Source: Olivibacter jilunii (GTDB lineage: Bacteria > Bacteroidota > Bacteroidia > Sphingobacteriales > Sphingobacteriaceae). From it: 64,000 bases of DNA. How positions within the stretch are numbered: position 1 is the stretch's first letter; the number at the start of each line of letters is the position of its first letter. The stretch is from the NCBI RefSeq assembly GCF_900607235.1, contig NZ_LR027853.1:62001-126000 (forward strand). Direction: 5' to 3'. Positions 44,049 through 64,000 of this stretch are shown piece by piece. A model generated the notes under the pieces. It had not been told where the DNA came from and did no database searches. It saw only the letters and a program-made list of their open reading frames with translations. A program made the translations under genes and the position numbers.

Positions 44049-44065
44049 GGAATAAAAAGCATATT

Positions 44066-45730
44066 ATGAAAAGATCAAATTTATCGATATATATACTGTT
44101 GGCCTTTTGCGTTATGCAGGGCTGTGGTAAAAGTTTTCTGGAAAAGAAACCATTAGGTTTAGCAAATGAAGAATTGCTGGCTACGAAGTCGGGCGTTGAT
44201 GCCGTCTTAATTGGCGCATATAGTTTGTTGGACGGGGTAGGTTCCGGTTATACATTCACATCGTCAGCTAGCAATTGGATTTATGGATCGGTGGCATCTG
44301 ATGACGCCTATAAAGGAAGCGATGTGGGCGATCAGGCGCAGATAACAACCATTGAACGCTATGTTAGTCAACCGGATATCGCTGCCTTTAATGAAAAATG
44401 GATTACAGTATATGATGGCGTCTCTCGCGCCAATGATGTGCTTAAGTTAATCAAGAAAACGACCGATATGACAGAGGCTGAGGTCGCACAGGCAACAGCG
44501 GAAGCACGCTTCTTACGTGCATGGTATCATTTTGAAGCAAAGAAGATGTGGAATATGGTGCCTTACGTTGACGATAACGTCACGGACTTTATCAACTTGC
44601 CAAATGACAAAGATATTTGGCCTATGATTGAAGCTGATCTACAATTCGCCGTAGATAATTTATCAGCTACAAAGAAAGATGTAGGGCGGGCAAGTCAATG
44701 GACGGCAAAGGCAGTGCTTGCTAAAGTACATATGTTTCAACAAGATTATGAAGCGGCTCGACCGCTATTGGATGATATCATCAATAACGGTCCTTTTGAA
44801 TTAGTAAGTAATTTTCATGATAATTTTAAAGTGGCAACCGAAAATAATATTGAATCGATTTTGGAAGTCCAAATGTCTGTTGGCGACGGAGGAAGTGGAC
44901 AAAACGGCTTTTGGGGCGATAATTTGAATTTTCCCTATGGCTCTGGACCAGGGGGGTGTTGCGGTTTCTTTCAGCCTTCTCAAAACTTAGTAAATGCTTT
45001 CAAAACCGATGAAAGTGGCTTGCCGTTATTGGACAATTTTAATGATGTCGATGTTAAGAATGATGAGGGCTTAGCTTCTTCTGATCCATTTGAACCCTAC
45101 ACAGGTAATTTGGACCCTCGTTTAGATTGGACCGTTGGTAGACGTGGTATTCCTTTCCTTAACTGGGGGATTCATCCGGGACGAAATTGGATCCGCGATC
45201 AAAGTTTTGCCGGTCCGTATACTTTCAAAAAATTCTTTGCGGCCAATGGCGATAATGCCGGAGCGGAATCACCCAGGGCAAATTCAAATAATTATCGCGC
45301 CTTACGATATGCCGACGTCCTGTTAATGCGTGCAGAAATTGCGGTGGAGGATGGCGACCTCACTAGCGCGTTGGATTTGGTGAATCAAATCAGGCGAAGA
45401 GCAGCAAATGAAGTGGTAACAAAAGATGATGGCACACCGGCAGCCACTTATGTCATAAGAGAGTATCCATCATTTCCAAGTCAGGATTACGCACGAAAAG
45501 CCGTTCGATTTGAAAGAAGGCTTGAGTTAGCATTGGAAGGACATCGCTTTTTCGATTTAGTACGTTGGCATGTTGCTGCTGAAACATTAAATACTTATCT
45601 TGAAAAAGAGAAGCAAAAACGAACCTATCTACAGGGTGCTAGTTTTACGGCTGGAAAGAATGAGTATTTTCCGATTCCGCAAGCACAGATTGATATTATG
45701 GGTGCAGATGTGTTGAAACAGAATCAGTAG
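44066..45730 (+). CDS. SusD/RagB nutrient-binding lipoprotein, locus C
   Basis: A 554-residue lipoprotein with the lipobox VMQGC (Cys about 20) followed by GKSFLEKKPLG. SusD marks are EARFLRAWYHFEAKKMWNMV, VLAKVHMFQQDYEAARPLLD, RFERRLELALEGHRFFDLVRW and NEYFPIPQAQID. The motif GGCCGFFQPSQNLVNAF and the position of GSVASDDAYKGSD are shared with the locus A SusD, showing a common origin. It captures the locus C ligand on the cell surface. A hairpin terminator lies between it and the enzyme genes, so the enzymes may be expressed at a lower level than the transporter. Confidence 0.94.
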   Translation: MKRSNLSIYILLAFCVMQGCGKSFLEKKPLGLANEELLATKSGVDAVLIGAYSLLDGVGSGYTFTSSASNWIYGSVASDDAYKGSDVGDQAQITTIERYVSQPDIAAFNEKWITVYDGVSRANDVLKLIKKTTDMTEAEVAQATAEARFLRAWYHFEAKKMWNMVPYVDDNVTDFINLPNDKDIWPMIEADLQFAVDNLSATKKDVGRASQWTAKAVLAKVHMFQQDYEAARPLLDDIINNGPFELVSNFHDNFKVATENNIESILEVQMSVGDGGSGQNGFWGDNLNFPYGSGPGGCCGFFQPSQNLVNAFKTDESGLPLLDNFNDVDVKNDEGLASSDPFEPYTGNLDPRLDWTVGRRGIPFLNWGIHPGRNWIRDQSFAGPYTFKKFFAANGDNAGAESPRANSNNYRALRYADVLLMRAEIAVEDGDLTSALDLVNQIRRRAANEVVTKDDGTPAATYVIREYPSFPSQDYARKAVRFERRLELALEGHRFFDLVRWHVAAETLNTYLEKEKQKRTYLQGASFTAGKNEYFPIPQAQIDIMGADVLKQNQ

Positions 45731-45811: not shown

Positions 45812-46765
45812 ATGATAAAAAGTATGCATGAACATCGAAGAAGTTTTCTGAAGAAAGCTTCGATGGCTGGATTGGGAGCCCTGATTAGCCCATACAATCA
45901 AGTTGAATCAACTATCGGGGAGTCGACAAATGTTAAGCGCAATCCGATCAGTGTATCCACGTATTCGTATTGGCATTTTAAAAAGGAAAAGTTTCCCATT
46001 GAGCAGGTAATTGAACAGGCAGCGACGTTGGGTTTTGATGGTGTAGAAATACTACATCGTCAAATGGAAAACGAAACTACCGGATATATGAATAAATTAA
46101 AGCGTCTTGCTTTCGAAAGTGGTTTGGCCTTACCTATGCTATCGATTCATCAGGATTTTGTATCACCTGATAAAGAAGACAGAAAAAAGAACATCGCACA
46201 TACCAAGCACTGCATCGATCTGGCTGTGCAGATGGGAATCCCTTGTGTCCGGTTGAACTCAGGTCGATGGAACACAGCAGGAACCTTTGACGAGTTGATG
46301 GCCGTAAAAGGAAAGGAAACGCCCTTAGCGGGATATACCGATGATGATGCCTTTAAATGGGTAATAGATGCGACGGGAGAATGCCTGATAAAGGCAGAGC
46401 AGGAGGGTGTGATTTTGGCCATCGAAAACCATTGGGGACTTACGACACAGGTTGAGGGCTTATTACGAATATACGAAGCCTTAAAAAGCTCATCGGCCAT
46501 GGGACTAAATCTGGATACCGGTAATTTTGCCGGCGACCCGTATAGTCAGTTCGAACAGTTAGCACCTTATGCTACCATTGTTCAAGCGAAGACCTATTAC
46601 GGAGGTGGAGAATGGTATACGTTAGATTTAGATTATCAACGGATCGCCGGCATATTGCGTAAAGTGAATTTTAAAGGCTATATTTCATTAGAGATGGAAG
46701 GAAAAGAAGACCCATTAACAGCAGTTCCTAAGAGCTTAGCCGTTTTGCGGAAAGCTTTTTACTAA
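45812..46765 (+). CDS. Exported sugar phosphate isomerase/epimerase family protein, locus C
   Basis: A 317-residue TIM-barrel protein of the AP-endonuclease-2 type. The N-terminus contains [20 protein letters not shown], a twin-arginine signal, so it should be periplasmic. Barrel motifs include [31 protein letters not shown] (metal ligands), [24 protein letters not shown] and [13 protein letters not shown]. With the adjacent oxidoreductase and DUF1080 protein it fits a 3-keto-sugar pathway, in which family members isomerise or split the oxidised sugar. The annotated start is the first of two close ATG codons (45812, 45824); the second starts immediately before the signal. Confidence 0.87.
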
Positions 46766-46780
46766 CGCAACCGTTTGCGT
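46765..46780. promoter_or_regulatory. PurR/LacI-type operator-like palindrome
   Basis: ACGCAACCGTTTGCGT begins on the last base of the isomerase stop codon. It is a 16-bp palindrome with one central mismatch and differs at one position from the classical PurR box ACGCAAACGTTTGCGT. It has a 4-nt centre and no T-run, so it is a poor terminator. The remaining gap to 47143 (about 360 bases) shows only a small TTTATC-G-GATAAA palindrome (46941-46953) and no gene. Confidence 0.45.
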
Positions 46781-47143
46781 GATGAATAAATTGGCAATCC
46801 TATTATTTTATTATTAAATTAACAGCCATTTTGGTCGAACATCATCATTTTATCGATCTTAAACTGCAATATTTAGCTAAATCAAACTTGGTATTATGAG
46901 CCATCTGGTTATTTATTGGTGCCACTGATCATGTCCTTCATTTATCGGATAAACGATAGTATCTCCGAGAAAAAAGGTCATTTTGTCTGTCCGGTTAATT
47001 AAATAGAGAGTAATAAAGAGACTTTTAATTGCAGAGAAAATCATCAAGCATAGTCAATACTTAAAACAACAAATCGAATGGATTTTTCTTAAATCGAACT
47101 TATTTTTTGAGAGAGGATCCTGAAACCAAAAATTAAAGCACAA

Positions 47144-48415
47144 ATGAAAGAAAAAAGTACCTCGAGAAGGGATTTTATCAAGAAGTCTGCCCTAGCAGCG
47201 GCAGCATTTAGCATCGTCCCGCGGTTTGTACTGGGAGGACAGGGATATTTGGCTCCGAGTGACCACCTAACAAAAGGTATTATTGGTGTTGGAGCTATGG
47301 GACGCGGTCATTTTTCCTATGCCGGCACCAAAACCGTTGCTATTTGTGATGTTGATACCAGACATTTAGCGATAGCCATGAAACAGCTGAATGATAGTGG
47401 TGTTAAGCAACTGTCAGATTTCCGTGAATTGATTCAACTTCCGGAAGTGGATATCGTTCATATCGCCACACCGCCTCATTGGCATGGTATCATGGCCGCT
47501 GAAGCTGCACGTGCCGGAAAAGATATATGGTGTGAAAAACCCATGACGCGTACAATAGGAGAAGGTAAACGTGTAAAAGAGGCTGTGCAACAACATGGGC
47601 GGATTTTTAGATTAAACACCTGGTTTAGATTTAAGGATAATTTCTACGGAATGGCTGTTCCGGTAAAGAAGATCAAGAAATTAGTGGATTCCGGTATGCT
47701 CGGCTGGCCACTGAAAGTTACTGTAAGTAGACATACGGGATTTGATTGGAAATTCTATTGGGTCGGAAAAGAGAATTTGACGCCTGAACAAGTGCCTAGC
47801 GAATTGAATTACGATATGTGGCTGGGGCCTGCTCAATACAAACCTTATAATGCACATCGTGTTCATCAAACCTTCCGGGGCTATTGGGACTATGATGGAG
47901 GCGGTTTAGGTGATATGGGACAACATTACCTGGATCCAATACAGTATTTCCTAGGGAAGGACAATGAAAGCCCGATTTCGGTTGAAGTAGACGCTCCACA
48001 GCAACACAGCGACGCAGTTGGCACGTGGCGACGAATTGAATATACCTATGCTGATGGATGTAAAATTATCCTCGACGGTGAAGGGAAAGATAAAGATGTG
48101 CCTTATATCGATGGGCCTAATGGTAAATTATATCCCGGGTTTAAATCGGATATCCCGGACATGGAACGTAAACTAGCGACATTCCCCGAACCGGAAGAGC
48201 AAGTGGTCGACTTTGTTGAAGCAGTGAAAAAGAGACAGAAATTTGCATTAAACGAGGATAATGGTTATCGTTCTTGCACCTTGGTAAATATGGGTTTAGC
48301 ATCTGTAAGGTTAGGTAGATCCTTAAAATTTGATCCAGATAAGCAGTTATTTGTTGATGATGAAGCGGCCAATCGTTTAATTGACCAACCGATGCGTGGC
48401 CCATGGACTATCTAA
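47144..48415 (+). CDS. Exported Gfo/Idh/MocA family oxidoreductase, locus C
   Basis: A 423-residue protein. The N-terminus STSRRDFIKKSALAAAAF is a textbook twin-arginine signal, expected because the enzyme folds around NAD(P) before export. The Rossmann domain shows GIIGVGAMGRGHF (about 46-58), AICDVD, HIATPPHWHGIMA and the EKPMTR motif (about 139-144); the C-terminal domain shows YWDYDGGGLGDMGQHYLDPIQ, which carries the active-site Asp and His. Periplasmic relatives oxidise or reduce C3 of glucosides. It lies 33 bases upstream of the HEAT/DUF1080 gene, so both are co-transcribed. Confidence 0.92.
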   Translation: MKEKSTSRRDFIKKSALAAAAFSIVPRFVLGGQGYLAPSDHLTKGIIGVGAMGRGHFSYAGTKTVAICDVDTRHLAIAMKQLNDSGVKQLSDFRELIQLPEVDIVHIATPPHWHGIMAAEAARAGKDIWCEKPMTRTIGEGKRVKEAVQQHGRIFRLNTWFRFKDNFYGMAVPVKKIKKLVDSGMLGWPLKVTVSRHTGFDWKFYWVGKENLTPEQVPSELNYDMWLGPAQYKPYNAHRVHQTFRGYWDYDGGGLGDMGQHYLDPIQYFLGKDNESPISVEVDAPQQHSDAVGTWRRIEYTYADGCKIILDGEGKDKDVPYIDGPNGKLYPGFKSDIPDMERKLATFPEPEEQVVDFVEAVKKRQKFALNEDNGYRSCTLVNMGLASVRLGRSLKFDPDKQLFVDDEAANRLIDQPMRGPWTI

Positions 48416-52033: not shown

Positions 52034-52380
52034 GTATTGCCAGATCAGGAAGTAGTATCTTCTGTCATTAATGACTCGCAAAAAAATGTAGAATTATTTA
52101 TCTAGCTACAGGGAATTCGCCTTTGGCCTATAGATGAAGGTGTATATATTAAAAGAGATTTCCCTAATCTAGCTAAAGTAATTTGCATTTAAAAAGCAAT
52201 TTATCTAAGTTTGTTTAACTCATTTTATAGTCTTACAAAAATAATACGCTGACCAATTATTTATCATATAAGCGTTGCGGGACCTTCGTGTTTGGTTAAA
52301 AATAATAATGCAAATAATATCATTGACTTCATAAGGAAGCATGGTGACGTAACGAATTTTTTATGGTTTAAAGCTTGATT
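52034..52380. other. Intergenic region before the locus D sigma gene
   Basis: About 350 AT-rich bases. No gene, repeat or consensus promoter pair was identified, although the sigma gene needs a promoter here. Confidence 0.45.
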
Positions 52381-52965
52381 ATGAAAGATTTAACAAAGTT
52401 TTCTGATGAAGAACTTTTCCATGCCTGTGTAGACGGGAGCGAATTATCCTTTGAAGAGCTATACAATCGTTATTGGTATAAATTATATGCCGAGGCGCTG
52501 AGACGGTTAAGAAAGGCTGAGTTAGCAGAGGAAATTGTACAGGATCTGTTCACTAGTATATGGCTGAACCGCAAACGAATACAGATTCATAGTTCCGTTG
52601 CTGCTTATCTTTTTACATCTGTTAGGTACTTGGTAATAAGTGCTATACAAAAGGAAATAGTTAGAAAGAATTACAAAGAATTCTACAAAGGCAATTTTAG
52701 GGATTACGATAATTCTACCGAAACACGGCTAGCCTTTAACGAGTTACAAAATCAAATTGAAAACCATGTTCGATTACTACCCGATCGCTGTCGTTATATT
52801 TATGAGCTAAGCAGAAAAGAGTTTAAAAGTAATAAGGAAATAGCTGATTTGCTTGGCATATCGGAAAAAACGGTTGAAAACCAGTTGACCAAAGCATTAA
52901 GTAGGCTGAAAGTAGCTATGAAGCTTTATTCGTTTCATCTTTTATTGCTGTATTATTTATGTTAG
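52381..52965 (+). CDS. ECF RNA polymerase sigma factor (FecI-like), locus D
   Basis: A 194-residue sigma factor. Region 2 is seen in SFEELYNRYWYKLYAEALRR and AELAEEIVQDLFTSIWLNRK, region 4 in LLPDRCRYIYELSRKEFKSN, KEIADLLGISEKTVENQLTKALSRL. The protein ends with the hydrophobic SFHLLLLYYLC found in many Bacteroidota ECF sigma factors. The ATG at 52381 is preferred over a TTG two codons earlier. It should activate the locus D transporter and enzyme genes under control of the FecR at 53262, 296 bp downstream. Confidence 0.9.
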   Translation: MKDLTKFSDEELFHACVDGSELSFEELYNRYWYKLYAEALRRLRKAELAEEIVQDLFTSIWLNRKRIQIHSSVAAYLFTSVRYLVISAIQKEIVRKNYKEFYKGNFRDYDNSTETRLAFNELQNQIENHVRLLPDRCRYIYELSRKEFKSNKEIADLLGISEKTVENQLTKALSRLKVAMKLYSFHLLLLYYLC

Positions 52966-53261: not shown

Positions 53262-54284
53262 ATGAAGAGCGAAATTTCCGAGGCTTTAATAGAAAAATAC
53301 CTTAATAAGCAATGTAATGCAGAGGAAGTGAAACTAGTGGAGGCGTGGTACGATGCGATGGGTAACTCGTTATCAGCCGAAGAATTCGATCAAATACGGA
53401 AAAATAGCCTTTTGAAAGCACGGATGTTGTATAATATCAAAAGGAGAAGTGGTCTGTCTCTCCATAATGGCAGTGAGGGCGCGCCTTTTAAGAAAGTACA
53501 TCGTAAAAATCGCTCTACCGGCGTTTGGGCCGCCGCTGCAGCAATTGTGTTAATCGCGTTCATATGGCTACTGTTGGGTGGCCAATTGGACAAAATTTTT
53601 AAAACAGATCCGGTGGTACTGGTTAAAAATGAAAGTAAAACCATACTGAAGCATCATTTGCCGGATGGAAGTGTGATTTGGCTAGCGCCACATTCGTCGC
53701 TGCAGTATAGCGGCACTTTTCAACAAGGGGTAAGAGAAGTAACGATGCGGGGTGACGTTTTTTTTGAAGTAGCCAAAGATCCGAACAAACCTTTTCTTAT
53801 CAATAGTGGATCGTTGTTGACCAAAGTTCTTGGAACAAGTTTTCGCATAAGGAGCGCAGGCGATGCAGAAGAAGAGGTCTCTGTGGTAACAGGTATGGTA
53901 GCTGTCAGTCGCGTCGATGAAAATATAAGCGTCGCTGAAAAGATGCAAGGTAGCCGAGAGGTTCTGCTCGTAGCTGATCAGAAAGTACATTTTAATAAAC
54001 ACAAGGCCCATTTAGTTAAAACAAAAGAAACATCGCGTTCGTCAGTGAAAATGTGGAAAAAGAGGAGTATGTCTTTTGAAGATAAGCCACTTAAAGATAT
54101 TGCTCACTTGCTTGACAGTACTTTCAATGTCCAAATTGATTTTCAGGATAAAAAACTTGAAAGTTATACATTGACTGCCGACTTTAATCAGCTAAACTTA
54201 ATTTCCATTATGGAAATAATCAGTCAATCACTCAACCTGCAATATGAGATTTCCGGAGATCGCATCAGGTTAATAAAAAAGTAA
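53262..54284 (+). CDS. FecR family anti-sigma factor, locus D
   Basis: A 340-residue regulator. The N-terminal cytoplasmic domain begins with the classic IEKYLNKQCNAEEVKLVEAWYD pattern; the membrane helix is about 88-107 (TGVWAAAAAIVLIAFIWLLLGG). The FecR domain (about 120-220) contains KHHLPDGSVIWLAPHSSLQY, VTMRGDVFFEVAKDPNKPFL and LTKVLGTSFRIRSAG; the C-terminal DUF4974 domain (about 265-338) contains FEDKPLKDIAHLLDSTFNVQ. It should restrain the locus D sigma factor until the STN domain of the SusC at 54459 signals ligand. 174 bp with a long dyad separate it from susC. Confidence 0.92.
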   Translation: MKSEISEALIEKYLNKQCNAEEVKLVEAWYDAMGNSLSAEEFDQIRKNSLLKARMLYNIKRRSGLSLHNGSEGAPFKKVHRKNRSTGVWAAAAAIVLIAFIWLLLGGQLDKIFKTDPVVLVKNESKTILKHHLPDGSVIWLAPHSSLQYSGTFQQGVREVTMRGDVFFEVAKDPNKPFLINSGSLLTKVLGTSFRIRSAGDAEEEVSVVTGMVAVSRVDENISVAEKMQGSREVLLVADQKVHFNKHKAHLVKTKETSRSSVKMWKKRSMSFEDKPLKDIAHLLDSTFNVQIDFQDKKLESYTLTADFNQLNLISIMEIISQSLNLQYEISGDRIRLIKK

Positions 54285-54458: not shown

Positions 54459-57400
54459 ATGAGAATCAACCCGAGGACATCCACAACCATTCGATCCTGT
54501 CTGCTTGGACTAATAATTATACTTACGGCCATCCACGTCCAAACATTTGCAAAGCAACCTGAGAGCACATTGGATCTTTCTAAACGTATCAATTTAAGCG
54601 TAAAAGGGCAGGCTTTATTACAGGCGTTAAAGCTTATTGAAGAGAAAGCAGCCATTAAATTTATTTACAGTAAACAAATTATAGATTTATCGCAGCGCGT
54701 ATTCATCGAAGTGCAGCAAGAGTCTTTGCAGCGAGTGCTTGATCAGCTTCTTACAGCCAAAAACATTCAGTACAAAGTTATCGAGAATCGGATTGTTTTA
54801 GGTAAATCCATCCCTGGTCTGAATCAAGAAATAGAGGTAAAGGGACTCGTAACCGATGCGCAAGGGCAGGGGATCCCGGGCGTGAGTGTACGCCTAAAGG
54901 GTAGTACCAAGGGTACAGTAACAGGGGCTGACGGTGCTTACCAATTAAAAGTGGAAGGGACAGGTGAATTAGAATTTAGCTATATGGGCTATGTGGGGCA
55001 AACCGTAGCTATTGGCGGTCGTCATGTAGTAAATGTACAATTAGTAGAAGATAATCAAGCCTTAAGTGAAGTAGTTGTTACCGCATTAGGGATTTCACGT
55101 GAAAAAAAGGCGTTGGCCTATTCGGTAGCCGAAGTTGGCGGTGACCAATTAACGCAGGCAAAAGAAGTGAATGTCGCTAATGCTTTGGTAGGTAAAGTGG
55201 CAGGTGTTGATGTTTCGGGTATGGCTACCGGCCCAGGTGGTTCGAGTAGGGTGATTATTAGGGGTAACGGATCATTGAGCGGAAACAATCAACCGCTGTA
55301 TGTGATCAATGGAATGCCGATGGATAATTCGACACCGGGAGGTAGCACAAGTTCGACAGGAATGGGTTGGAATATTGACCGTGGCGATGGAATAGCGGGT
55401 ATCAATCCAGATGATATTGAAAGTATCAGCGTTTTAAAAGGCGGTCCGGCATCTGCTTTATATGGATCGAGAGCCGCAAATGGCGTAATTTTGATTACTA
55501 CAAAAAAAGGAGTAGCACAAAAAGGTTTAGGTATTGAGTTTAATAGCACCTCTACCTTTGAGCGTCCTTCCATGTACCCTGAATGGCAGTATGAATACGG
55601 ACAGGGGATTGATGGACGAAAGCCTACCACACAGGACGAGGCGATTGCAACCGGCCGTTTATCCTATGGTGCGAGGATGGACGGGCAGCCCTATGTGCAA
55701 TTTGATGGCGTAGAACGACCCTATTCGCCTGAAAAAAACAATCCACAACAATTTTATGAAACCGGGCAGACTTATATAAACTCGTTAGCACTATACGGAG
55801 GGAGTGAAGATCTGCGGTATCGTGCGAGTGTTTCGAACACGGATGCGCAAGCGATTGTACCGAACTCTACTTACAAACGACTAACTACCAACTTATCGGT
55901 CAATGCCAATATCGGCAAGAAGCTTCATTTGGAAGCCGTTTCACAATATAATTATGATCAAGGAAAAAACCGTCCTAAAGTTGGTTATGCAAATGATAAT
56001 CCCGCTTGGGCTGTATATATGTTAGCAAATACAGTTGACATCATGTCGCTGGCACCGGGTTACGATGCTGAGGGAAATGAAGTCAGGTGGAATCCGGTGG
56101 CTGAAGCACCAAACTCTTGGTTTGTCGTAAATCGTTACCGGAATCACGATAAAAAGAACCGATATATTATGCAGGGAAGTCTTCAATACGATATTCTCGA
56201 CAATCTTTTTATCAAGGGAAGCGCGAGTAGAGACTATTATAATTCAGAATTCGAAGCTATACAGCCCACAGGAACCGCTTTTAGACCCCTAGGTGCTTAT
56301 CAAAGCTTAAGAGCGACCTCATCAGAAACAAATTACATGTTTACCTTGAATTACAATACAAGTTTCCGTGATTTCAGCTTGTCCGCGATGGCCGGCGGAA
56401 ATATACAAAGGAATGAGTACGATCTGACAACGATTGAGGGAAGTGAATTCAGGGTGCCTAATTTCTACAGCTATACGAATTTAAATATTTTAACAACCAC
56501 CCCTTTATATCAAAAAACGGGTATTAACTCAATTTTTGGATCAGCGGACATTGGTTATAAAGGCTTAGCGTATTTAACTTTCACGGGTCGACAAGATTGG
56601 TTCTCTACATTAAGTCCGCAAAACAATAGTATTTTCTATCCATCGGTAGGAGGAACCTTTGTTCTATCAGAAGCACTGAGCTTTCCCAAATCCATAAGTG
56701 GTTTGAAATTACGGGGCTCATGGGCACAGGTAGGTGGTGCGACACCGACCGCTTATATATTGAACGAATCCTATTCCATGGTACAGGGAGGACATAATGG
56801 AAGGCCGGTACAGGAATTGACGTCCGATTTAGTTAACAATCCAGGCTTAAGACCTTTGACCTCTACCACTTACGAATTTGGTCTTGATGCGCAGTTTTTC
56901 AATGGGCGTCTAGGGGCTGATCTTACTTTTTATAATCGAAAAACAACCGATGATATTGTTGAATCCAACATTTCTCAAGCTTCCGGTTATAATCGAGCCT
57001 TATTAAATGTAGGCGAGTTAAATAATCGGGGTATTGAAGTACTCTTAAGTGGTGCACCTATCAAAAAGGAAAATTTCAGTTGGGATGCCACCTATAACAT
57101 TTCTTATAACAAAAGTGAAATTCAACAATTAGCGGAGGGGTTAGATGCTATAGTAGTAGGCGATGGTGTTGGCGGAGGAAGTATACGCAATGTGGTAGGT
57201 AGGCCTTATGGCGCTTTGTGGGGTTATCGGAAACTAACAGACGAAAATGGTCAAGTGGTATATAATCCGGAAAGTGGGTATGCGGTAAGAGGCCCGCTCG
57301 AAGAGATTGGTCAGGGTGTTCCTCCTTTAATTATGGGATTGAACAATACGTTTCGCTATAAGGACTTTTCGCTGAATGTATTGATCGACGGGAAGTTTGG

Positions 57401-57848
57401 TGGTATGATGTACTCCAATATGTATCAGTATGCCTACCGTTTTGGATTGCCGGAAGAAACCTTACCGGGACGTGAAACCGGTTTAACAGTGACCGGTGTT
57501 GACCCCGAAGGTAATCCATTCAGTAAAACGTGGGCCCCTCAAGACATTGATACCTATTATGATAATGACAAGTTCTATACCTCCATGTTTATGTTTGACA
57601 ACGACTTCGTAAAGCTCAGACAGGTTATTTTATCCTACAATCTTCCGATAGAAAAATTCCGATGGGCGAAATTACAGGGTGCCACTATTTCCTTGGTCGG
57701 ACGGAACCTATTGACTTTATATCACGATAAGCGAAATAAGTATTTCGACCCTGAGTCTAGCTATACTAACAGTAATGCACAGGGATTAGAGGCATTTGGC
57801 GTTCCCAGAACGAGGAGCTTCGGTATCAACCTAATTGTTAAATTTTAA
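54459..57848 (+). CDS. SusC/RagA TonB-dependent receptor with STN domain, locus D
   Basis: A 1129-residue outer-membrane importer. Signal peptide about 1-31; STN domain about 45-105 (GQALLQALKLIEEKAAIKFI); carboxypeptidase-like domain about 125-200 (IEVKGLVTDAQGQGIPGVSV); SusC signature LSEVVVTALGISREKKALAY, a variant form; plug with VINGMPMDNS and GGPASALYGSRAANGVILITT; barrel ending FGINLIVKF. The variant 'TALGISREKK' type is a known SusC subgroup usually paired with the SusD-like_2 type of lipoprotein, as here. It should import the locus D substrate and signal to FecR. Confidence 0.94.
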   Translation: MRINPRTSTTIRSCLLGLIIILTAIHVQTFAKQPESTLDLSKRINLSVKGQALLQALKLIEEKAAIKFIYSKQIIDLSQRVFIEVQQESLQRVLDQLLTAKNIQYKVIENRIVLGKSIPGLNQEIEVKGLVTDAQGQGIPGVSVRLKGSTKGTVTGADGAYQLKVEGTGELEFSYMGYVGQTVAIGGRHVVNVQLVEDNQALSEVVVTALGISREKKALAYSVAEVGGDQLTQAKEVNVANALVGKVAGVDVSGMATGPGGSSRVIIRGNGSLSGNNQPLYVINGMPMDNSTPGGSTSSTGMGWNIDRGDGIAGINPDDIESISVLKGGPASALYGSRAANGVILITTKKGVAQKGLGIEFNSTSTFERPSMYPEWQYEYGQGIDGRKPTTQDEAIATGRLSYGARMDGQPYVQFDGVERPYSPEKNNPQQFYETGQTYINSLALYGGSEDLRYRASVSNTDAQAIVPNSTYKRLTTNLSVNANIGKKLHLEAVSQYNYDQGKNRPKVGYANDNPAWAVYMLANTVDIMSLAPGYDAEGNEVRWNPVAEAPNSWFVVNRYRNHDKKNRYIMQGSLQYDILDNLFIKGSASRDYYNSEFEAIQPTGTAFRPLGAYQSLRATSSETNYMFTLNYNTSFRDFSLSAMAGGNIQRNEYDLTTIEGSEFRVPNFYSYTNLNILTTTPLYQKTGINSIFGSADIGYKGLAYLTFTGRQDWFSTLSPQNNSIFYPSVGGTFVLSEALSFPKSISGLKLRGSWAQVGGATPTAYILNESYSMVQGGHNGRPVQELTSDLVNNPGLRPLTSTTYEFGLDAQFFNGRLGADLTFYNRKTTDDIVESNISQASGYNRALLNVGELNNRGIEVLLSGAPIKKENFSWDATYNISYNKSEIQQLAEGLDAIVVGDGVGGGSIRNVVGRPYGALWGYRKLTDENGQVVYNPESGYAVRGPLEEIGQGVPPLIMGLNNTFRYKDFSLNVLIDGKFGGMMYSNMYQYAYRFGLPEETLPGRETGLTVTGVDPEGNPFSKTWAPQDIDTYYDNDKFYTSMFMFDNDFVKLRQVILSYNLPIEKFRWAKLQGATISLVGRNLLTLYHDKRNKYFDPESSYTNSNAQGLEAFGVPRTRSFGINLIVKF

Positions 57849-57865: not shown

Positions 57866-59413
57866 ATGAAAAAGCTATTTCTACATGTGTTAGCGGTTTC
57901 GTTGTTCTGCTTCTTTTCTGCCTGCGATAAAGGTTTTGAAGAGATGAATGTTAACCCAAACGCTTCAACCACGGTGGTGCCTGAATACATGTTTACGAAG
58001 GCGCTATTAGATGGTGTGAGTTTCAATTATGTCGGTGCTGCTTATTTAACAATTGGCGGATCGATGCAGCAGACGGCTACCTATAAAGAAGTACCCGCCG
58101 CAGGCGATAAATATTTTAATGAAACCTATTCATACAATAGTTGGGAGGCTTATTCTACAGCCGTTATTGAAATAAAAAAAGTGATCGATGCAGTAAGCGC
58201 CAATCCCGAAGACATTAATAAATTGGCTATTGCACGTATTTGGAAGGTTTTAATATTTCACAGGCTTACTGACTTATATGGCGACGTTCCATATACCGAA
58301 GCAGGTTTTGGTGCTAGTAACCAAAATTACACACCGAAATATGATGTGCAAGCCACGATTTATAACGATTTATTGAAAGAATTGGAAGAGTCGGCCAATA
58401 CGTTGGATCCGGATTTACCAACTTTTGGCAATGGCGATTTGATTTATGCCGGAAACGTTACGAAATGGAGGCAATTTGCATATTCATTGATGTTACGCCT
58501 GGGCATGCGTTTGACAAAGATAGATGCGACGCTTGCAGAAAGTTGGGTAAGAAAGGCAATCGCGGGAGGCGTAGTTATGAATGATAACGATTTGGCACGC
58601 ATTCAATATGTAGATGGATCGCAAGTAGCACAGCGTAATTTCATTGCAACAGCTCTTTTGAATACGGATTATCTCAATCCGCAAGCGGTGGATAATATAG
58701 AAGGGGGTAAACTGGCCAAAACCTTTATTGATCATCTGAAAGAGACGCAGGATCCGCGATTAAATGCAATTGCTGTCGTCTGGGTACGTAACGCAACAGG
58801 TACCTATGTAGCGGACACCAGTTCAGCGATTCAAAAGGGGATGCCCAATGCTGCTTTTAATTCATTTCCTGCCGATTTTGCAAGTTATTCGGAACCGAAT
58901 CCAAACACGATTCTACGTTACGATGCCCCTCATTTGGTTTTAACAAATGCCGAAACGAATTTATTACTCACGGAAGCCGCTCTCCGCGGATGGTATGATG
59001 GTAATCCCGCGCAAACTTATGAAGCTGCGGTACGCGCAGCAATGCATCAATGGAGTTTATTTGGTCAACATGGGGAGATCAGTGAAGCTCGGATTAATTT
59101 CTACTTATCACAACACCCATTTAATAATCAGGGCACTTTCGAAGAAAAGCTTGAACAGATTTATACCCAATTATGGGTGTCCTTATTCTTACAAGATGAA
59201 TATGAAATTTTTGCTAATTGGCGCCGGACGGGTTACCCCAGCCTGACTCCGACTAACTATCCGGGAAACCTGACAGGAGGAACCATCCCCCGACGTTTTG
59301 TGGTGCCACTAACTGAAGAAAGTTACAATCGCGATAATTTTAATGAAGCAAAACAACGGCAAGGAGGAACAAATGCCTTAACCAGTCGTGTATGGTGGGA
59401 TCCCGCGAACTAA
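57866..59413 (+). CDS. SusD-like lipoprotein (SusD-like_2 type), locus D
   Basis: A 515-residue lipoprotein, lipobox FFSAC (Cys about 20), followed by DKGFEEMNVNPNASTTVVPEYMFTKALLD, the start typical of the second SusD subgroup. Other marks are IWKVLIFHRLTDLYGDVPYTEA, WRQFAYSLMLRLGMRLTKID, HLVLTNAETNLLLTEAALRGW and NFYLSQHPF, with a C-terminal GGTIPRRFVVPLTEESYN. This subgroup is found with transporters for small peptides, amino-compounds or sugars and not only polysaccharides, which fits the non-glycosidic enzymes downstream. It starts 17 bases after susC and ends 14 bases before the amidohydrolase. Confidence 0.92.
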   Translation: MKKLFLHVLAVSLFCFFSACDKGFEEMNVNPNASTTVVPEYMFTKALLDGVSFNYVGAAYLTIGGSMQQTATYKEVPAAGDKYFNETYSYNSWEAYSTAVIEIKKVIDAVSANPEDINKLAIARIWKVLIFHRLTDLYGDVPYTEAGFGASNQNYTPKYDVQATIYNDLLKELEESANTLDPDLPTFGNGDLIYAGNVTKWRQFAYSLMLRLGMRLTKIDATLAESWVRKAIAGGVVMNDNDLARIQYVDGSQVAQRNFIATALLNTDYLNPQAVDNIEGGKLAKTFIDHLKETQDPRLNAIAVVWVRNATGTYVADTSSAIQKGMPNAAFNSFPADFASYSEPNPNTILRYDAPHLVLTNAETNLLLTEAALRGWYDGNPAQTYEAAVRAAMHQWSLFGQHGEISEARINFYLSQHPFNNQGTFEEKLEQIYTQLWVSLFLQDEYEIFANWRRTGYPSLTPTNYPGNLTGGTIPRRFVVPLTEESYNRDNFNEAKQRQGGTNALTSRVWWDPAN

Positions 59414-59427
59414 TCAGCAGAAGCATT

Positions 59428-60687
59428 ATGTATAAAAAGATCATATTTTTTATTACGCTAACCGTTCTTAGCGCAACATTATGCGCGCAAGACTACGCGA
59501 TACTTATTAAAGGTGGGCACGTCATCGATCCGAAGAATGGTATCGATGAAGTAATGGACATTGCCATTAAGGACGGGAAAATTGTCCAGGTGGCTAAAAA
59601 TATTCAAGGAAAGGCTACACAAGTTGTCCTCGCGGAAAAACTGTATGTAACACCTGGTTTAATCGATATTCACGCGCATCATTTTTTCGGGACCGAACCG
59701 CATAGTTACCTGAGAAATAGTTATACGGCTATTCCACCGGACGGCTTTACTTTTCGCAATGGCGTTACCACGGTCGTGGATGCCGGAAGTCCCGGTTGGA
59801 GAAATTTTCAGCTTTATAAGGATCAGACAATAGATCACTCAAAAACCCGCGTACTTGCTTTCTTAAACATTATTGGTGAAGGAATGCGCGGTGGTGCTTA
59901 TGAGCAGGACTTAAAGGATACCGATCCAAAAATGGCCGCTTTGGTTGCTCGGCAATTCCACCCTTATATCGTAGGCTTCAAAGTAGCTCATTTTGAAGGC
60001 CCGGATTGGACAATAGTTGATCATGCCGTAGAAGCGGGGAAGCAAGCGGGTAATTTGCCGGTTATGGTGGACTTCGGTGGTAGTATACCACCACTACCTT
60101 TGGAAGACCTGCTCCTGAACCATTTAAGAAAAGGTGACATTTTAACCCATTGTTTTGCACAGATCAAAGGGCGCGAATCAATTGTCGATCCCACTGAAAA
60201 GAAAGTGAAGCCTTTTGCATGGAAAGCGCGAAAGGAGGGGCGGTATTTTGATGTGGGCTACGGAGGGATTAGCTTTTCCTTTAGCCAGGCAATTCCAGCT
60301 ATCAAAGAAGGCTTCTATCCGGACGCTATTAGTACCGATATCCATACAGGCAGTATGAATAATGCGATGAAGGATATGTTGAGCGTGATGTCTAAGTGTT
60401 TGGTAATGGGAATGAGCTTGCAGCAGGTAGTTGCCGCCAGTACTTGGCAACCCGCTCAAATAATAAAACGACCGGAACTAGGTAGTCTGAGTGTAGGGGC
60501 AGAGGCTGATATTGCTATTCTGAATGTACTTAATGGAAATTTCGGATACTTTGATTATACAGGATACAAGATCAACGGAAAGCAGAAGTTAGCCTGTGAA
60601 ATGACCGTGCGAGGTGGAGAGATTGTATACGATCTCAATGGGATCGCTAACCCTATAGTCGTTGCTAAAAAGCAAACGGAACATTAA
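59428..60687 (+). CDS. Exported amidohydrolase/deacetylase family metallohydrolase
   Basis: A 419-residue amidohydrolase-superfamily enzyme with a cleavable signal peptide (about 1-20, ATLCA before QDYAILIKGG). The metal site is visible as His82 and His84 (GLIDIHAHHF), Lys185 (VGFKVAHFE), His241 (LTHCF) and Asp304 (STDIHTGSM). It resembles the COG3964 group, whose studied members deacylate small N- or O-acyl compounds and whose genes often neighbour a SelA-like PLP protein, as here. It probably removes an acyl group from the imported substrate in the periplasm. ATG 59428 yields the signal peptide; an in-frame upstream start would overlap susD. Confidence 0.85.
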   Translation: MYKKIIFFITLTVLSATLCAQDYAILIKGGHVIDPKNGIDEVMDIAIKDGKIVQVAKNIQGKATQVVLAEKLYVTPGLIDIHAHHFFGTEPHSYLRNSYTAIPPDGFTFRNGVTTVVDAGSPGWRNFQLYKDQTIDHSKTRVLAFLNIIGEGMRGGAYEQDLKDTDPKMAALVARQFHPYIVGFKVAHFEGPDWTIVDHAVEAGKQAGNLPVMVDFGGSIPPLPLEDLLLNHLRKGDILTHCFAQIKGRESIVDPTEKKVKPFAWKARKEGRYFDVGYGGISFSFSQAIPAIKEGFYPDAISTDIHTGSMNNAMKDMLSVMSKCLVMGMSLQQVVAASTWQPAQIIKRPELGSLSVGAEADIAILNVLNGNFGYFDYTGYKINGKQKLACEMTVRGGEIVYDLNGIANPIVVAKKQTEH

Positions 60688-60727
60688 CAAAAACCATATA
60701 ACAGTTTAACAATCAAATTTATTCATT

Positions 60728-61183
60728 ATGAAAACAGAAAGAAGATCAGTCATTAAAAGATTGTTTGCCTCCATGGTAGGTCTATTAGGAGCTAATGCCA
60801 TGCTTCGAGCTGAAAGCAAGTCGGCCACAAAAGAAACCTTCAATATAACTAAGCAGGACAATGTGCCTTTATTCTCGGGATCCACCAAATATAACGGATT
60901 AGTGTTTGTGGCCGGTAAAGGGGCACATTTCGATGGTGATATAAAAGCACATACAGATCATGTATTAAAAGAATTGGAAGCGGAACTAAAAAAGGCAGGA
61001 TCATCGATGGAAAAGGTGCTGAAAGTCAACGTCTATCTGGCAGATCTTGGAGATTACAAGGCCATGAATGAGGTGTATCAAGGACGATTTGGCAGTAAAC
61101 CGCCCGTACGCACTACCGTGGCGACTTATGGCGGGGTGCCCGGTGATTCGCTCGTGGAAATGGATTGCATAGCCTATGTTTAA
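60728..61183 (+). CDS. RidA family protein with twin-arginine-like export signal
   Basis: A 151-residue RidA/YjgF/UK114 protein. The N-terminus TERRSVIKRLFASMVGLLGA followed by NAMLRA looks like a twin-arginine signal, absent from ordinary RidA (about 128 residues). The RidA core starts near residue 45 (VPLFSGSTKYNGLVFVAGKG) and keeps the catalytic-site Arg128 (PPVRTTV, equivalent to Arg105 of E. coli RidA) and Glu144 (VEMDCIAYV). RidA hydrolyses reactive enamines and imines made by PLP enzymes to keto acids and ammonia. Export and the neighbouring PLP enzyme suggest it does so in the periplasm. Its end overlaps the next gene by 8 bases. Confidence 0.88.
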   Translation: MKTERRSVIKRLFASMVGLLGANAMLRAESKSATKETFNITKQDNVPLFSGSTKYNGLVFVAGKGAHFDGDIKAHTDHVLKELEAELKKAGSSMEKVLKVNVYLADLGDYKAMNEVYQGRFGSKPPVRTTVATYGGVPGDSLVEMDCIAYV

Positions 61184-62120
61184 CATGAACAGAATGTACG
61201 TTAGGAAAAGTTTTTTTATGCTTATGATGCTGCTCTTTTTTGTTACTACCGGCGCAGCTCAGCAAATAACAAAAGAAGAACTTCGTTTTCTAACTTCCTC
61301 CTGGAAAGGGGAGCGTTACCGAGATGGGCGCCCGAAGATTCCTGATTCACTCCTTTTAAGAGCCGAGCGTATTGGTTTTGATGATGCTTGGACCATTCTG
61401 AGAAATGCGGGCTATTATAATCAATTTGAGGATGGGTGGAAAGCGATTCGTGAAAATGAGGTCTTTGCAGGGCGCGCTGTAACGGCCGCGTATATGCCAA
61501 GGAGGCCCGATATAGAAGATGCCATATTAGAGCGCGGGCATGAGAAAGGCCTTAAAGGAAGCACCAATGCGTGGCCCATTGAGCTACTGCAAAAAGGAGA
61601 TGTGTACGTCGCTGATGGCTTCGGGAAAGTAGCGGGTGGAACCTTGATTGGACAAACCCTGGGAACCACCATCTTTCAGCGTACCGGTAAGGGCGTAGTT
61701 TTTGATGCCGGAGCACGTGATTTTGATGGTTTAGCCGACATAAAAGGTTTCAATGCTTTTGTACGTGATTTCCATCCGTCTTTTTTAGAGGAATCAATGT
61801 TAATGGGACTTAATACACCGATACGTATCGGCAAAGCGATTGTGTTACCTGGAGATTTAGTGTTGTGTAATAAAGAGGGGGTGCTTTTTATACCGGCCCA
61901 CCTGGCAGAAGAGGTCATCGTCACTGCCGAATTTATCCAATTGAGGGATGCCTTTGGAAAAGATCGAATTCAAGCGGGGAAATACAGTGTAGGACAGATC
62001 GATAACCAGTGGGATGATCCGATAAAACTTGATTTTCTGAACTGGTTAAAGGAACAAGAAGATCGGGTGAGGCTTACCAAGAAGCAGCTGGATCAACTAA
62101 TGGAAAAAAGAACCTGGTAA
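61176..62120 (+). CDS. Exported RraA-like (2-keto-acid aldolase fold) protein
   Basis: A 314-residue protein with an N-terminal signal (hydrophobic about 11-28, ending TTGAAQQ). Residues about 90-255 are an RraA/HMG-aldolase domain: VYVADGFGKVAGGTLIGQTL and GVVFDAGARDFDG, containing the Arg180-Asp181 pair used by metal-dependent 4-hydroxy-2-oxoacid aldolases and oxaloacetate decarboxylases of this family, then GDLVLCNKEGVLFIP. Extra N- and C-terminal helical parts make it longer than RraA (about 160-230). Ribonuclease inhibition is unlikely for an exported form; cleavage of a keto acid is more probable. The start overlaps ridA; ATG 61185 or 61194 are alternatives. Confidence 0.83.
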   Translation: MFNMNRMYVRKSFFMLMMLLFFVTTGAAQQITKEELRFLTSSWKGERYRDGRPKIPDSLLLRAERIGFDDAWTILRNAGYYNQFEDGWKAIRENEVFAGRAVTAAYMPRRPDIEDAILERGHEKGLKGSTNAWPIELLQKGDVYVADGFGKVAGGTLIGQTLGTTIFQRTGKGVVFDAGARDFDGLADIKGFNAFVRDFHPSFLEESMLMGLNTPIRIGKAIVLPGDLVLCNKEGVLFIPAHLAEEVIVTAEFIQLRDAFGKDRIQAGKYSVGQIDNQWDDPIKLDFLNWLKEQEDRVRLTKKQLDQLMEKRTW

Positions 62121-62144
62121 ACATAATGAACCTAAATATTTGAT

Positions 62145-63266
62145 ATGAGGCAATTTTCATTTTACAAAGTCACTTTGTTGATTGCAATGGTGACGGCAAT
62201 CCTGGCCATATGGGCTTACTGGACCCAGAAGCAATCAGTATGGGGCCCGAGCCTTATTATATGTTTGCTAGCAACGGCCTTATCTTTTCGGACCATTAAG
62301 TCGTTACAAGGGTATGCTTATTCAATGATGATATTTGCAATGGTTGCGGCGGCGCTGTGCTATCCCCAACACTTTGTAAGTGTTAACGGTTTTCCATTGG
62401 CTGAGCTGATCACTCCTTTGATACAGCTGATCATGTTCGGCATGGGGACTTCCATGAGCGTACACGATTTTGTGGGGGTGATTAAGCATCCAAAGGGCGT
62501 TTTTATTGGTGTAGTAAGTCATTTCATCATTATGCCCTGTGTTGGCTTTTTCCTGGCCAATGTAAGCGGCTTTTCTCCGGAAATAGCAGCTGGAATTATT
62601 CTGATTGGCTGTTCGCCCAATGGAATGGCCTCCAATGTGATGTCTTATATGGCTAAGGCCAATTTACCATTATCGATTACGATCACAGCGGTATCAACAT
62701 TACTATCACCTTTGGTAACTCCGACGCTGATGAAGCTATTAGCCGGTGCATTTGTAGAAATCCACCTATTAGACATGATGTGGGATATTTTGAAGATGGT
62801 TATACTACCCATAGGTGCCGGTTTGTTATTCAATAGACTATTTCATGGCAAAGTAAAGTGGTTAGACGCATTTATGCCTAAAATCTCGATGGCAGGTATT
62901 GCTATTATCATTGCCATCATTACAGCTGCCGGTAGAGATAGTTTACTCCATATTGGTCCGCAATTGATCCTGCTCGTTTTAATACACAATTTAACAGGTT
63001 ATTTCTTAGGCTATAGTTGCGGTAGACTTTTCCGTATGTCTGAGCGCGACTGCCGAACCATGGCAATTGAAGTGGGAATGCAGAATGGAGGCCTAGCCTC
63101 CGGTATTGCAAAGGAAATGGGTAAGCTAGCTACAGTGGGACTAGCACCTGCCATCTTTGGGCCTTTAATGAATATCACAGGATCATTGTTAGCTTCCTAT
63201 TGGCAAAATAAACCACTAGCTACTCCTGACGGTGCGCTTAAAACGGTTAGCGAGCTTAAAAATTAA
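62145..63266 (+). CDS. Bile acid:sodium symporter (BASS) family transporter
   Basis: A 373-residue inner-membrane protein with about ten hydrophobic segments. Family motifs are LIQLIMFGMGTSMSVHDFVG, GIILIGCSPNGMASNVMSYM (the crossover region GCxPG/N-x-x-SN) and RTMAIEVGMQNGGLASGIA. BASS proteins take up organic anions with sodium; bacterial members carry, among others, pyruvate, pantoate and keto acids. Its place between the RraA-like protein and the PLP enzyme suggests import of the pathway product. It starts 24 bases after the previous stop. Confidence 0.9.
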   Translation: MRQFSFYKVTLLIAMVTAILAIWAYWTQKQSVWGPSLIICLLATALSFRTIKSLQGYAYSMMIFAMVAAALCYPQHFVSVNGFPLAELITPLIQLIMFGMGTSMSVHDFVGVIKHPKGVFIGVVSHFIIMPCVGFFLANVSGFSPEIAAGIILIGCSPNGMASNVMSYMAKANLPLSITITAVSTLLSPLVTPTLMKLLAGAFVEIHLLDMMWDILKMVILPIGAGLLFNRLFHGKVKWLDAFMPKISMAGIAIIIAIITAAGRDSLLHIGPQLILLVLIHNLTGYFLGYSCGRLFRMSERDCRTMAIEVGMQNGGLASGIAKEMGKLATVGLAPAIFGPLMNITGSLLASYWQNKPLATPDGALKTVSELKN

Positions 63267-63278
63267 AAAGAATTTATC

Positions 63279-64000
63279 ATGAGAAGAAGAGAACTATTAA
63301 AATATTTGTCGATGCTGCCTGCCGGTGGATTCATCACCCCTTATGTAGACGGGAATAGATTATTATGGCTGGATAAGGAGCGGCGGGGTCGAGAGCTATT
63401 CAAAGAATTGGGCGTACGTACTTTTATCAACGCTGCCGGAACCTATACTGCTATGACGGGATCCCTTATGCGACCGGAAGTACTGGAAGCGATAAACTAC
63501 AGTGCAACGGATTTTTGCATGCTGGATGAATTGCAAGATAAAGTAGGTGAAAAAATTGCGAGTTTGGTACATGCGGAATCTGCCGTCGTAACAGCAGGAT
63601 GTTTTTCCGCTATGACTTTGGGATTGGCCGGAATATTAACGGGCCTTGACGAAGAAAAAGCAATTCAGTTACCCCACCTAATGGGAACCGATATGAAGTC
63701 GGAGGTGATCTGTCAAAAAGGGCATGAAATTGTTTATACCCATGCGCTTAAAAATACGGGTTGTAAAATTGTGATGGTAGAAACGAGGGAAGAGCTTGAG
63801 CAAACCATTAATGAACGAACGGCGTTGATGTTCTTTCTTAACGTACAGGCTGACAAAGGTAGCATCATGCACGAGGAGTGGGTCTCGATTGCAAAAAAAC
63901 ATGGTGTTCCCACCATGATTGATATCGCGGCTGACGTACCACCTGTTTCCAACTTGTGGAAATTTCATGAAATGGGCTTTGATTTAGTGTGCGTATCTGG
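63279..64000 (+). CDS. SelA-like PLP enzyme with twin-arginine-like signal, partial at window end
   Basis: The first 240 codons of a gene that runs off the window. The N-terminus MRRRELLKYLSMLPAGGFIT looks like a twin-arginine signal. The body matches the SelA/D-glucosaminate-6-phosphate ammonia-lyase family of fold-type I PLP proteins: FINAAGTYTAMTGSLMRPEV, HAESAVVTAGCFSAMTLGLA, and MIDIAADVPP with the Asp that contacts the PLP pyridine nitrogen. The window ends at VCVSG, just before the expected lysine. Such enzymes eliminate ammonia from amino acids or amino-sugar acids to give enamines, the substrate class of RidA. It starts 12 bases after the transporter gene. Confidence 0.85.
   Translation, partial: MRRRELLKYLSMLPAGGFITPYVDGNRLLWLDKERRGRELFKELGVRTFINAAGTYTAMTGSLMRPEVLEAINYSATDFCMLDELQDKVGEKIASLVHAESAVVTAGCFSAMTLGLAGILTGLDEEKAIQLPHLMGTDMKSEVICQKGHEIVYTHALKNTGCKIVMVETREELEQTINERTALMFFLNVQADKGSIMHEEWVSIAKKHGVPTMIDIAADVPPVSNLWKFHEMGFDLVCVS

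Follow-up and report, generated by a model that had tools for sequence, protein, structure and literature searches.

Much nitrogen is bound in the amino sugars of chitin, peptidoglycan and glycans, and the described routes that we found free it inside the cell. In Pseudoalteromonas prydzensis, OngB, OngC and the RidA-family protein OngD are all needed for growth on N-acetyl-glucosaminate (GlcNAc1A), according to the accessible part of PMC9537276, and OngB is also described in the available text of PMC12017989. In the DgaABCDEF system of Salmonella, a SelA-like ammonia-lyase dependent on pyridoxal phosphate (PLP), named DgaE or DGL (7lc0/7lce), acts on a hexosaminate and is followed by an aldolase, as far as the available text of PMC9529869 goes; excerpts of two further papers mention a predicted glucosaminate route in Natrarchaeobius (PMC12343721) and the oxidation of hexosamines to hexosaminates by acetic acid bacteria (PMC9171043). 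Here we describe a gene set of Olivibacter jilunii, at the end of a 64,000-nucleotide stretch of contig NZ_LR027853.1 (positions 62,001 to 126,000; hereafter the window), in which an amidohydrolase, a RidA protein, an RraA-like protein, a BASS transporter and a SelA-like PLP enzyme stand behind a SusC/SusD pair. The set is real and conserved, its enzyme families are ordinary but unusually placed and combined, and it almost certainly comes with export leaders. On balance, and by a modest measure, the sequence evidence leads us to favour a role in the extracytoplasmic breakdown of an N-acetylated amino-sugar acid (a 2-acetamido-2-deoxy-aldonate, e.g. N-acetyl-glucosaminate or N-acetyl-galactosaminate).

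In the pathway that we propose, SusC/SusD would deliver the acid to the periplasm, either free or as part of an oligosaccharide; there the amidohydrolase would take off the acyl group, the SelA/DgaE-like PLP enzyme would eliminate the C3 hydroxyl and release an enamine, and the dedicated RidA would turn this enamine into ammonia and a 2-keto-3-deoxy-aldonate. From this product, a 4-hydroxy-2-keto acid, the RraA-fold protein could release pyruvate and an aldehyde by cleavage, with the BASS protein importing the organic anion. For relatives we propose either that the sugar is first converted to the acid at the same site, by an exported dehydrogenase together with a lactonase, or that a kinase, a 2-keto-3-deoxy-6-phosphogluconate (KDPG)-type aldolase and a galactonate-type transporter serve to bring the keto acid into the cell. 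We consider the lyase and RidA chemistry likely and an amino-sugar acid a reasonably probable substrate; the assignment of RraA as an aldolase on the lyase product is tentative, and an import of pyruvate rather than of the keto acid by BASS is rather doubtful. Gene order, families, conserved residues, leaders, co-occurrence and neighbours were computed, and from these we infer the substrate, every reaction, the location and the direction of transport.

The five family assignments that had been made from the letters are all borne out by Pfam and NCBIfam models. The amidohydrolase scores 434.4 bits with NF006689, over the curated cut-off of 371, and H82, H84, K185, H241 and D304 are kept in at least 95% of 93 aligned rows; the metal ligands of the amidohydrolase superfamily we take to be HxH, Lys, His, His and Asp. 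RidA passes PF01042 (70.4 vs 27.3 bits) and stays below the subfamily cut-off of TIGR00004 (66 vs 106 bits), with R5 R6, R128 and E144 present in at least 95% of the alignment, the last two being the catalytic Arg and the conserved Glu of the family. The RraA-like protein passes PF03737 (60.9 vs 24.5 bits) and stays below the equivalog cut-off of TIGR02798 for 4-hydroxy-4-methyl-2-oxoglutarate/4-carboxy-4-hydroxy-2-oxoadipate (HMG/CHA) aldolase (50 vs 304.5 bits); its R181 D182, which we take for the R-D signature of RraA-fold aldolases, is invariant in 16/16 rows with letters of one alignment and in 16/16 rows of a second. The best of five structure models of this protein has a mean predicted local distance difference test score (pLDDT) of 80 (the other four, 60 to 77) and matches 3k4i, 3noj (an HMG/CHA aldolase) and 5x15 with template modelling (TM) scores of 0.51-0.54 by query, a likeness at the level of the fold only. 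The BASS protein passes PF01758 (134.3 vs 24.3 bits) and does not reach the cut-offs of TIGR00841 and PanS.

The SelA-like gene overruns the window by 496 bp; read on in the host contig, it stops at window-equivalent position 64496 and encodes 405 aa, and the PLP lysine that an extension past 64000 was expected to reveal lies just beyond the window as K243, in the motif SGGKAIRGPQ, present in 98/98 SelA-like rows with letters. With TIGR01437, the DgaE family, the protein scores 179.5 bits, under the cut-off of 385.3, and its membership scores also include one of 141 against 600 bits. Its solved relatives are DGL (179 bits, TM 0.77, query-normalised) and Cap15 (8t7j; 145 bits, TM 0.79), the structure searches establishing folds and nothing beyond. 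If Cap15 were the better guide, the SelA-like protein would be an O2-using PLP oxidase or decarboxylase and RidA would handle its imine product; Cap15 is the second-best relative by E-value with an equal or slightly better TM score, and the periplasm is exposed to oxygen. DGL is nonetheless the higher by sequence, and the neighbours described below suit a 2-keto-3-deoxy acid product, so that we regard Cap15-like chemistry as quite improbable.

DGL numbering was mapped by eye onto printed alignments, in which the loop alignment has gaps. In DGL three Arg residues, Arg301 among them, lie near the substrate phosphate as placed by manual docking, according to the available text of PMC9529869. Arg301 aligns with T340 of the SelA-like protein, where none of the 97 rows with letters has a basic residue; the partners of the other two docked Arg, read by eye, are around 371-373 or in a gap, and few rows are basic there. 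At position 257, opposite the alpha-carboxylate Arg226 of DGL, most rows have Lys or Arg (K 76, R 18, Q 4 of 98). The missing counterparts at the phosphate site, together with the basic alpha-carboxylate site, fit an unphosphorylated substrate. Loss of His163 is reported to make DGL release the enamine (PMC9529869, same portion), and by alignment the SelA-like loops have no equivalent of His162/His163 (HH in 0/98; Q190/A191 in the window), which fits a need for RidA. We infer that the SelA-like enzymes act on unphosphorylated acids and that they may hand the enamine to RidA.

Leaders were scored with a simple heuristic of our own, with a hydrophobicity cut-off of 1.6, after sequences cut at the plus-strand edge of a locus had been dropped (3/92 amidohydrolases were removed in this way). 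By this measure the original prediction of leaders on all four enzymes stands: those of the amidohydrolase and the RraA-like protein are Sec-type, and RidA and the SelA-like protein carry a twin-arginine (RR) motif. Hydrophobic leaders were found in 84/89 amidohydrolases, 16/16 RraA and 51/65 RidA proteins, and the twin-arginine motif in 59/65 RidA and 91/98 SelA-like proteins; the 55 cytosolic controls (kinase, aldolase, sigma factor and thiolase-like proteins) showed neither. The pair R3 R4 is present in 97/97 SelA-like rows with letters of the larger alignment, RR is invariant in 20/20 rows of the first SelA-like alignment, down to 46% identity and with varying neighbouring residues, and TatC is present in the window's genome.

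The genes also co-occur elsewhere. In a survey of 201 genomes of the window's family (related genomes, so not 201 independent trials), the SelA-like protein (E at most 1e-10) is found in 31 and the amidohydrolase (at most 1e-60) in the same 31; RidA (at most 1e-40) occurs in those 31 and in G540, a 68%-complete genome, and RraA (at most 1e-50) in those 31 and seven more. Counted by genus, the SelA-like protein, the amidohydrolase and RidA are each found in 6 of 25 genera and RraA in 8, and the presence of the set varies within genera g2, g4 and g5. Across a phylum sample the SelA-like protein was found in 8/395 genomes, the window's counted. The order of nine genes is kept in two genus-mates (L138, L139), and the same parts, rearranged, occur in two further ones (L140-L141, L142). 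Chance adjacency is ruled out by this genome-level co-occurrence and by synteny in the genus-mates and in 75 loci from genome contigs.

At least 515 matches to the SelA-like alignment were obtained, of which these 75 loci are the top-ranking ones, not a random sample; they come from 19 named genera (20 with a metagenome-assembled genome (MAG) titled Chitinophaga pinensis), two family-level records and other MAGs, and form 38 groups under our own labels, with 21 loci from Dyadobacter. A run was defined as same-strand genes with gaps of at most 350 bp around the best SelA-like gene. Amidohydrolase genes are in 65 of the 75 runs and RidA genes in 54, followed by SusC (25), SusD (20), BASS (17) and RraA (14); anywhere in the locus, RraA is found in 16 and BASS in 21. 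All five genes share one run in 6/75 and one locus in 12/75. Thus the expected recurrence of the five-gene set holds for amidohydrolase, RidA and SelA-like genes, while RraA and BASS are optional. Outside Dyadobacter the counts are, for 54 runs, amidohydrolase 46, RidA 38, dehydrogenase 22, BASS 16, RraA 13 and lactonase 13. Five neighbour clusters (a second SMP-30-like cluster, c11, c12, MFS8 and a thiolase-like cluster) were dropped as Dyadobacter background, because all their members are in Dyadobacter loci and none is in a run.

The further genes of these runs bear on the substrate. A sorbosone-type dehydrogenase with a cytochrome c part (PF07995 and PF00034, one representative tested) is present in 38/75 runs, and a second dehydrogenase-like cluster, named by eye and matching no Pfam or NCBIfam model, in 26; the main dehydrogenase count refers to the first cluster alone and would be 44 runs with the second included. 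Lactonases are in 27/75 runs (PF10282-type 19, SMP-30 type 8), small cytochromes c in 22 and a second RidA with a leader in 10, and dehydrogenase, lactonase, amidohydrolase and RidA come together in 18. Within 5 kb of the SelA-like gene the dehydrogenase has a density of 6.4 per 100 kb, against 1.2 in the outer flanks, and the same contrast is seen for the second cluster (3.8 vs 0.2) and the cytochrome (3.0 vs 0.2). In six loci (L102, L104, L105, L107, L108, L110) a kinase, a KDPG-type aldolase and a major facilitator superfamily (MFS) transporter follow the SelA-like and amidohydrolase genes in the run; one representative of each gave 176 bits for PF05035 (2-keto-3-deoxygalactonate kinase), 134 bits for PF01081 and, for the transporter, 256 bits for TIGR00893 (D-galactonate transporter), its best family, under the cut-off. 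These three would take a 2-keto-3-deoxy-aldonate, the product expected of a DgaE-like enzyme from a hexosaminate, and so provide a clue to the substrate. In L150 and L154, both of the window's family, dehydrogenase, SMP-30 type lactonase, RidA, SelA-like, amidohydrolase, RraA and BASS genes lie close together, with SelA-like proteins 46-47% identical to the window's. Taken together, the neighbours suggest a sequence from sugar to lactone, acid, amino acid and keto acid.

In L128, genes of the DGOK/DGOA type may belong functionally with an enolase-superfamily-like gene next to them (by eye) and were for this reason left uncounted among the six loci. The stretch L128 8274-12667, between triple amidohydrolases and the kinase and KDPG-type aldolase, holds genes that look by eye sulfatase-like and, with a Tat leader, enolase-superfamily-like.

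Several observations weigh against an exported amino-sugar-acid pathway. Among the active-site residues, the beta6 metal-binding His of related enzymes is mostly replaced in the amidohydrolases (Tyr 71, His 13, Phe 7 of 93 rows), with Tyr at residue 278 (60259-60261) in the window. In the RraA-like protein, the window has Gln at position 160, the counterpart by alignment of Asp102 of HMG aldolase (across the 16 rows, D 9, S 5, Q 2). In the SelA-like proteins, 48/97 rows have Arg or Lys at position 342 (Tyr in the window), two residues away from where Arg301 aligns, and the proteins basic there may have a phosphate or second acid site; some His occurs in the loop of 43/98 proteins, and in the 39 rows with His at position 188 (Asn188 in the window) it may stand in for DGL His163.

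The leaders, too, are uneven. Only 49/98 SelA-like leaders pass the hydrophobicity cut-off, and that of the window's protein is weakly hydrophobic (1.12 vs 1.6) and has no clear cleavage site; the window's RidA narrowly misses (1.57 vs 1.6). For these two proteins the case for export is carried mainly by the conserved RR and by orthologs. The weak hydrophobic stretch of the window's SelA-like leader speaks for misread leaders and cytoplasmic proteins; however, the conservation of R3 R4 and of R5 R6 among variable neighbouring residues, an N-terminal extension that precedes the region aligning with solved homologs, and the presence of TatC all speak for export, and we hold a cytoplasmic location to be very improbable indeed.

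As for the neighbourhoods, RidA genes are only slightly denser close to the SelA-like gene (5.8 per 100 kb within 5 kb) than in the outer flanks (4.2), a small contrast explained by RidA standing further off in many runs, and the first type of RidA is missing from 21/75 runs (17 with the second type counted). Dehydrogenase, lactonase and kinase genes are all missing from the run in the window; the best match to the dehydrogenase in this genome (42% identity, cytochrome part not matched) is on another contig. Likewise, 18/75 runs lack dehydrogenase, lactonase and 2-keto-3-deoxygalactonate kinase, and several of these have RraA and BASS. Such runs would suit a pathway in which exported enzymes degrade an N-acyl beta-hydroxy amino acid: the amidohydrolase would free the amino acid, the PLP enzyme dehydrate and deaminate it, and RidA finish; with N-acyl-3-hydroxyaspartate the product would be oxaloacetate, which the RraA-fold protein could decarboxylate to pyruvate for BASS. 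RraA-fold aldolases are indeed also named oxaloacetate decarboxylases among the family names, COG3964 enzymes reportedly hydrolyse N-acetyl-D-amino acids (Ornelas et al. 2013), and MlrC-like and gamma-glutamyltransferase-like genes (by eye) are found in some runs (L121, L129, L135). We nonetheless believe this to be unlikely: the solved relative closest by sequence to the SelA-like protein acts on a hexosaminate phosphate, for an aldolase of the RraA type the substrate would have to be a 4-hydroxy-2-keto acid, and many of the same runs contain dehydrogenase, lactonase and, in six loci, kinase with KDPG-type aldolase. Of the two substrates in the original prediction, the amino-sugar acid is therefore the better, and N-acyl amino acids are less likely.

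Finally, seven family genomes have RraA but no SelA-like protein. Two additional RraA copies (49% identical) are encoded in the window's genome, on contigs C5 and C7; they stand in the setting of other SusC/SusD genes and without a lyase, one directly beside BASS in L158 and the other in L157. The pair in L158, and the counts for RraA and BASS among the 75 loci, rule out an obligate five-gene route. The claim of a complete periplasmic route thus survives in part: deacylase, PLP lyase and RidA with export leaders travel together, while RraA and BASS are not obligate steps. It is possible, though we would not bet on it, that deacetylase, ammonia-lyase and RidA form a core of three enzymes, that RraA is not an aldolase on this product, and that BASS imports the intact 2-keto-3-deoxy acid for use inside. 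This would agree with the six loci carrying kinase, aldolase and MFS transporter, with the 2-keto-3-deoxygalactonate kinase and KDPG-type aldolase that the genome has elsewhere, and with Gln160. On the other hand, RraA is present in all 31 family genomes with a SelA-like protein, its gene is embedded in the operon, overlapping the preceding gene by 8 bp in the window, and R181 D182 is conserved. Since RraA and BASS also pair without a lyase, our confidence in the RraA step was lowered slightly, to somewhat below even.

The coordinates of the window's genes, re-derived here, agree with the original prediction in order and in the spacings of 40, -8, 24 and 12 bp; the end of SusD is followed by the amidohydrolase start after 14 bp. 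The set is probably fed by SusC/SusD and under sigma/anti-sigma control, and the sigma factor has the same position in L138 and L139. Directly 3' of the SelA-like gene, the host contig contains no further genes of the set; there, a 13-pair terminator-like stem with a T run is followed by thrS and infC (named by eye), and for this reason the run seems to end at the SelA-like gene.

Table. Genes of the Olivibacter jilunii locus, in window positions (past 64000, window-equivalent positions read from the host contig); proposed functions are predictions.
Feature	Position	Strand	Remarks
ECF-type sigma factor	52375..52965	+	locus head; TTG start as listed; weak phmmer match to ECF cluster, 62 bits
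FecR-like anti-sigma factor	53262..54284	+	named by eye; phmmer 89 bits to anti-sigma cluster
SusC-type TonB-linked outer-membrane transporter, STN domain	54459..57848	+	TIGR04056 674 bits (cut-off 368); PF07660, PF13715, PF07715
SusD-like lipoprotein	57866..59413	+	PF12771 265 bits
COG3964-type amidohydrolase/deacetylase, Sec leader	59428..60687	+	NF006689; proposed N-acetyl-hexosaminate deacetylase
RidA-family protein, twin-arginine leader	60728..61183	+	PF01042; proposed enamine/imine hydrolase
RraA-fold protein, Sec leader	61176..62120	+	PF03737; proposed 2-keto-3-deoxy-aldonate aldolase
BASS-family inner-membrane transporter	62145..63266	+	PF01758; proposed organic-anion (pyruvate or keto acid) importer
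SelA/DgaE-like PLP enzyme, twin-arginine leader	63279..64000, on to 64496	+	TIGR01437; proposed 2-amino-2-deoxy-aldonate ammonia-lyase

Some observations on the wider material are recorded here in their own right. Elsewhere in the window, two more proteins with RR leaders (45812-48415; by eye, a sugar-isomerase-like TIM-barrel protein and a Gfo/Idh-type oxidoreductase) stand behind another SusC/SusD pair (40776-45730). A longer Tat-leader form of the SelA-like protein, of about 535-570 aa with an extra C-terminal part, is found at L108 15521-17128, L054 12948-14597 and L058 13804-15525, and in several loci adjoins a dehydrogenase and paired amidohydrolases. BASS, MlrC-like, second-type RidA, gamma-glutamyltransferase-like and Tat-leader proteins recur as an alternative group near the SelA-like gene of L121, L129 and L135 (by eye), and sialidase-like genes (by eye; L124 3-761 and 17087-18163) flank three amidohydrolases and a SelA-like gene. 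In genus g5 (G429 to G536; genomes of 2.3-4.3 Mb), 12/14 positive genomes have at least nine SelA-like copies and 13/14 at least eight amidohydrolases, with up to 19 and 37 first-look candidates, respectively; the runs of its loci L124-L132 include triple amidohydrolases. G453, of another genus, likewise has at least nine SelA-like and at least eight amidohydrolase copies. One SelA-like gene (G249:C1:1095987-1096732) is apparently broken in two pieces.

In its fullest version, which we put forward tentatively and consider somewhat improbable as a whole, this would be a complete non-phosphorylative, Entner-Doudoroff-like N-acetyl-hexosamine pathway lying wholly in the Bacteroidota cell envelope. 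Dehydrogenase, lactonase, deacetylase, PLP ammonia-lyase, RidA and aldolase would all be exported, only small organic acids would cross the inner membrane, and the system would have expanded to many paralogous sets in one genus. If the proposed pathway is right, ammonia and acetate would be released outside the inner membrane, PLP and enamine chemistry would be an activity of the envelope, and the existence of a RidA with a Tat leader would be explained. SelA-like, RidA and RraA genes now annotated by family only would gain a testable reaction, and an ammonia-lyase that lacks the protonating His of DGL and has a RidA of its own would allow a direct test of why RidA accompanies such lyases.

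An exported version of the pathway was not found in the literature, which is weak evidence of absence, as subscription papers and preprints were outside the coverage. The amidohydrolase resembles other COG3964 enzymes (NF006689; 2ics, 2ogj, 8je0, 8wzy) in its family model and in HxH, Lys, beta5 His and Asp, while differing from them in the export leader of the window-type enzymes and in the beta6 His, mostly Tyr here. For PvdN of Pseudomonas we know of no RidA partner. PvdN is, like the SelA-like protein, a fold-type I PLP enzyme, placed in the periplasm; by the available text of PMC7497351 it modifies pyoverdine and does not serve catabolism. In the Salmonella Dga system, as in the pathway proposed here, a SelA-like PLP ammonia-lyase acts on a hexosaminate and an aldolase comes next; the Dga substrate, however, is the 6-phosphate made in uptake by the phosphotransferase system, and the accessible part of PMC9529869 names no RidA or deacetylase; His162/His163 and the docked phosphate-site Arg of DGL have, by alignment, no counterpart in the window set. 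The Ong route (OngB-OngC-OngD-KdgK) is different in that OngB and OngC are predicted to be cytoplasmic, behind an SSS transporter, that it is reported from Gammaproteobacteria and one Betaproteobacterium, and that no exported aldolase is described in the available portion of PMC9537276. Compared by family names only, its members (OngB, OngC, SSS, KdgK) also differ from COG3964, SelA-like and BASS, with no kinase in the run. It resembles the pathway proposed here, by the same portion of PMC9537276, in the direct deacetylation and then deamination of unphosphorylated N-acetyl-glucosaminate to 2-keto-3-deoxygluconate, in its essential RidA-family protein and in its TonB-dependent outer-membrane importers. 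We suggest that the set described here is a variant of the oxidative amino-sugar-acid pathway, one that parallels the cytoplasmic Ong route.

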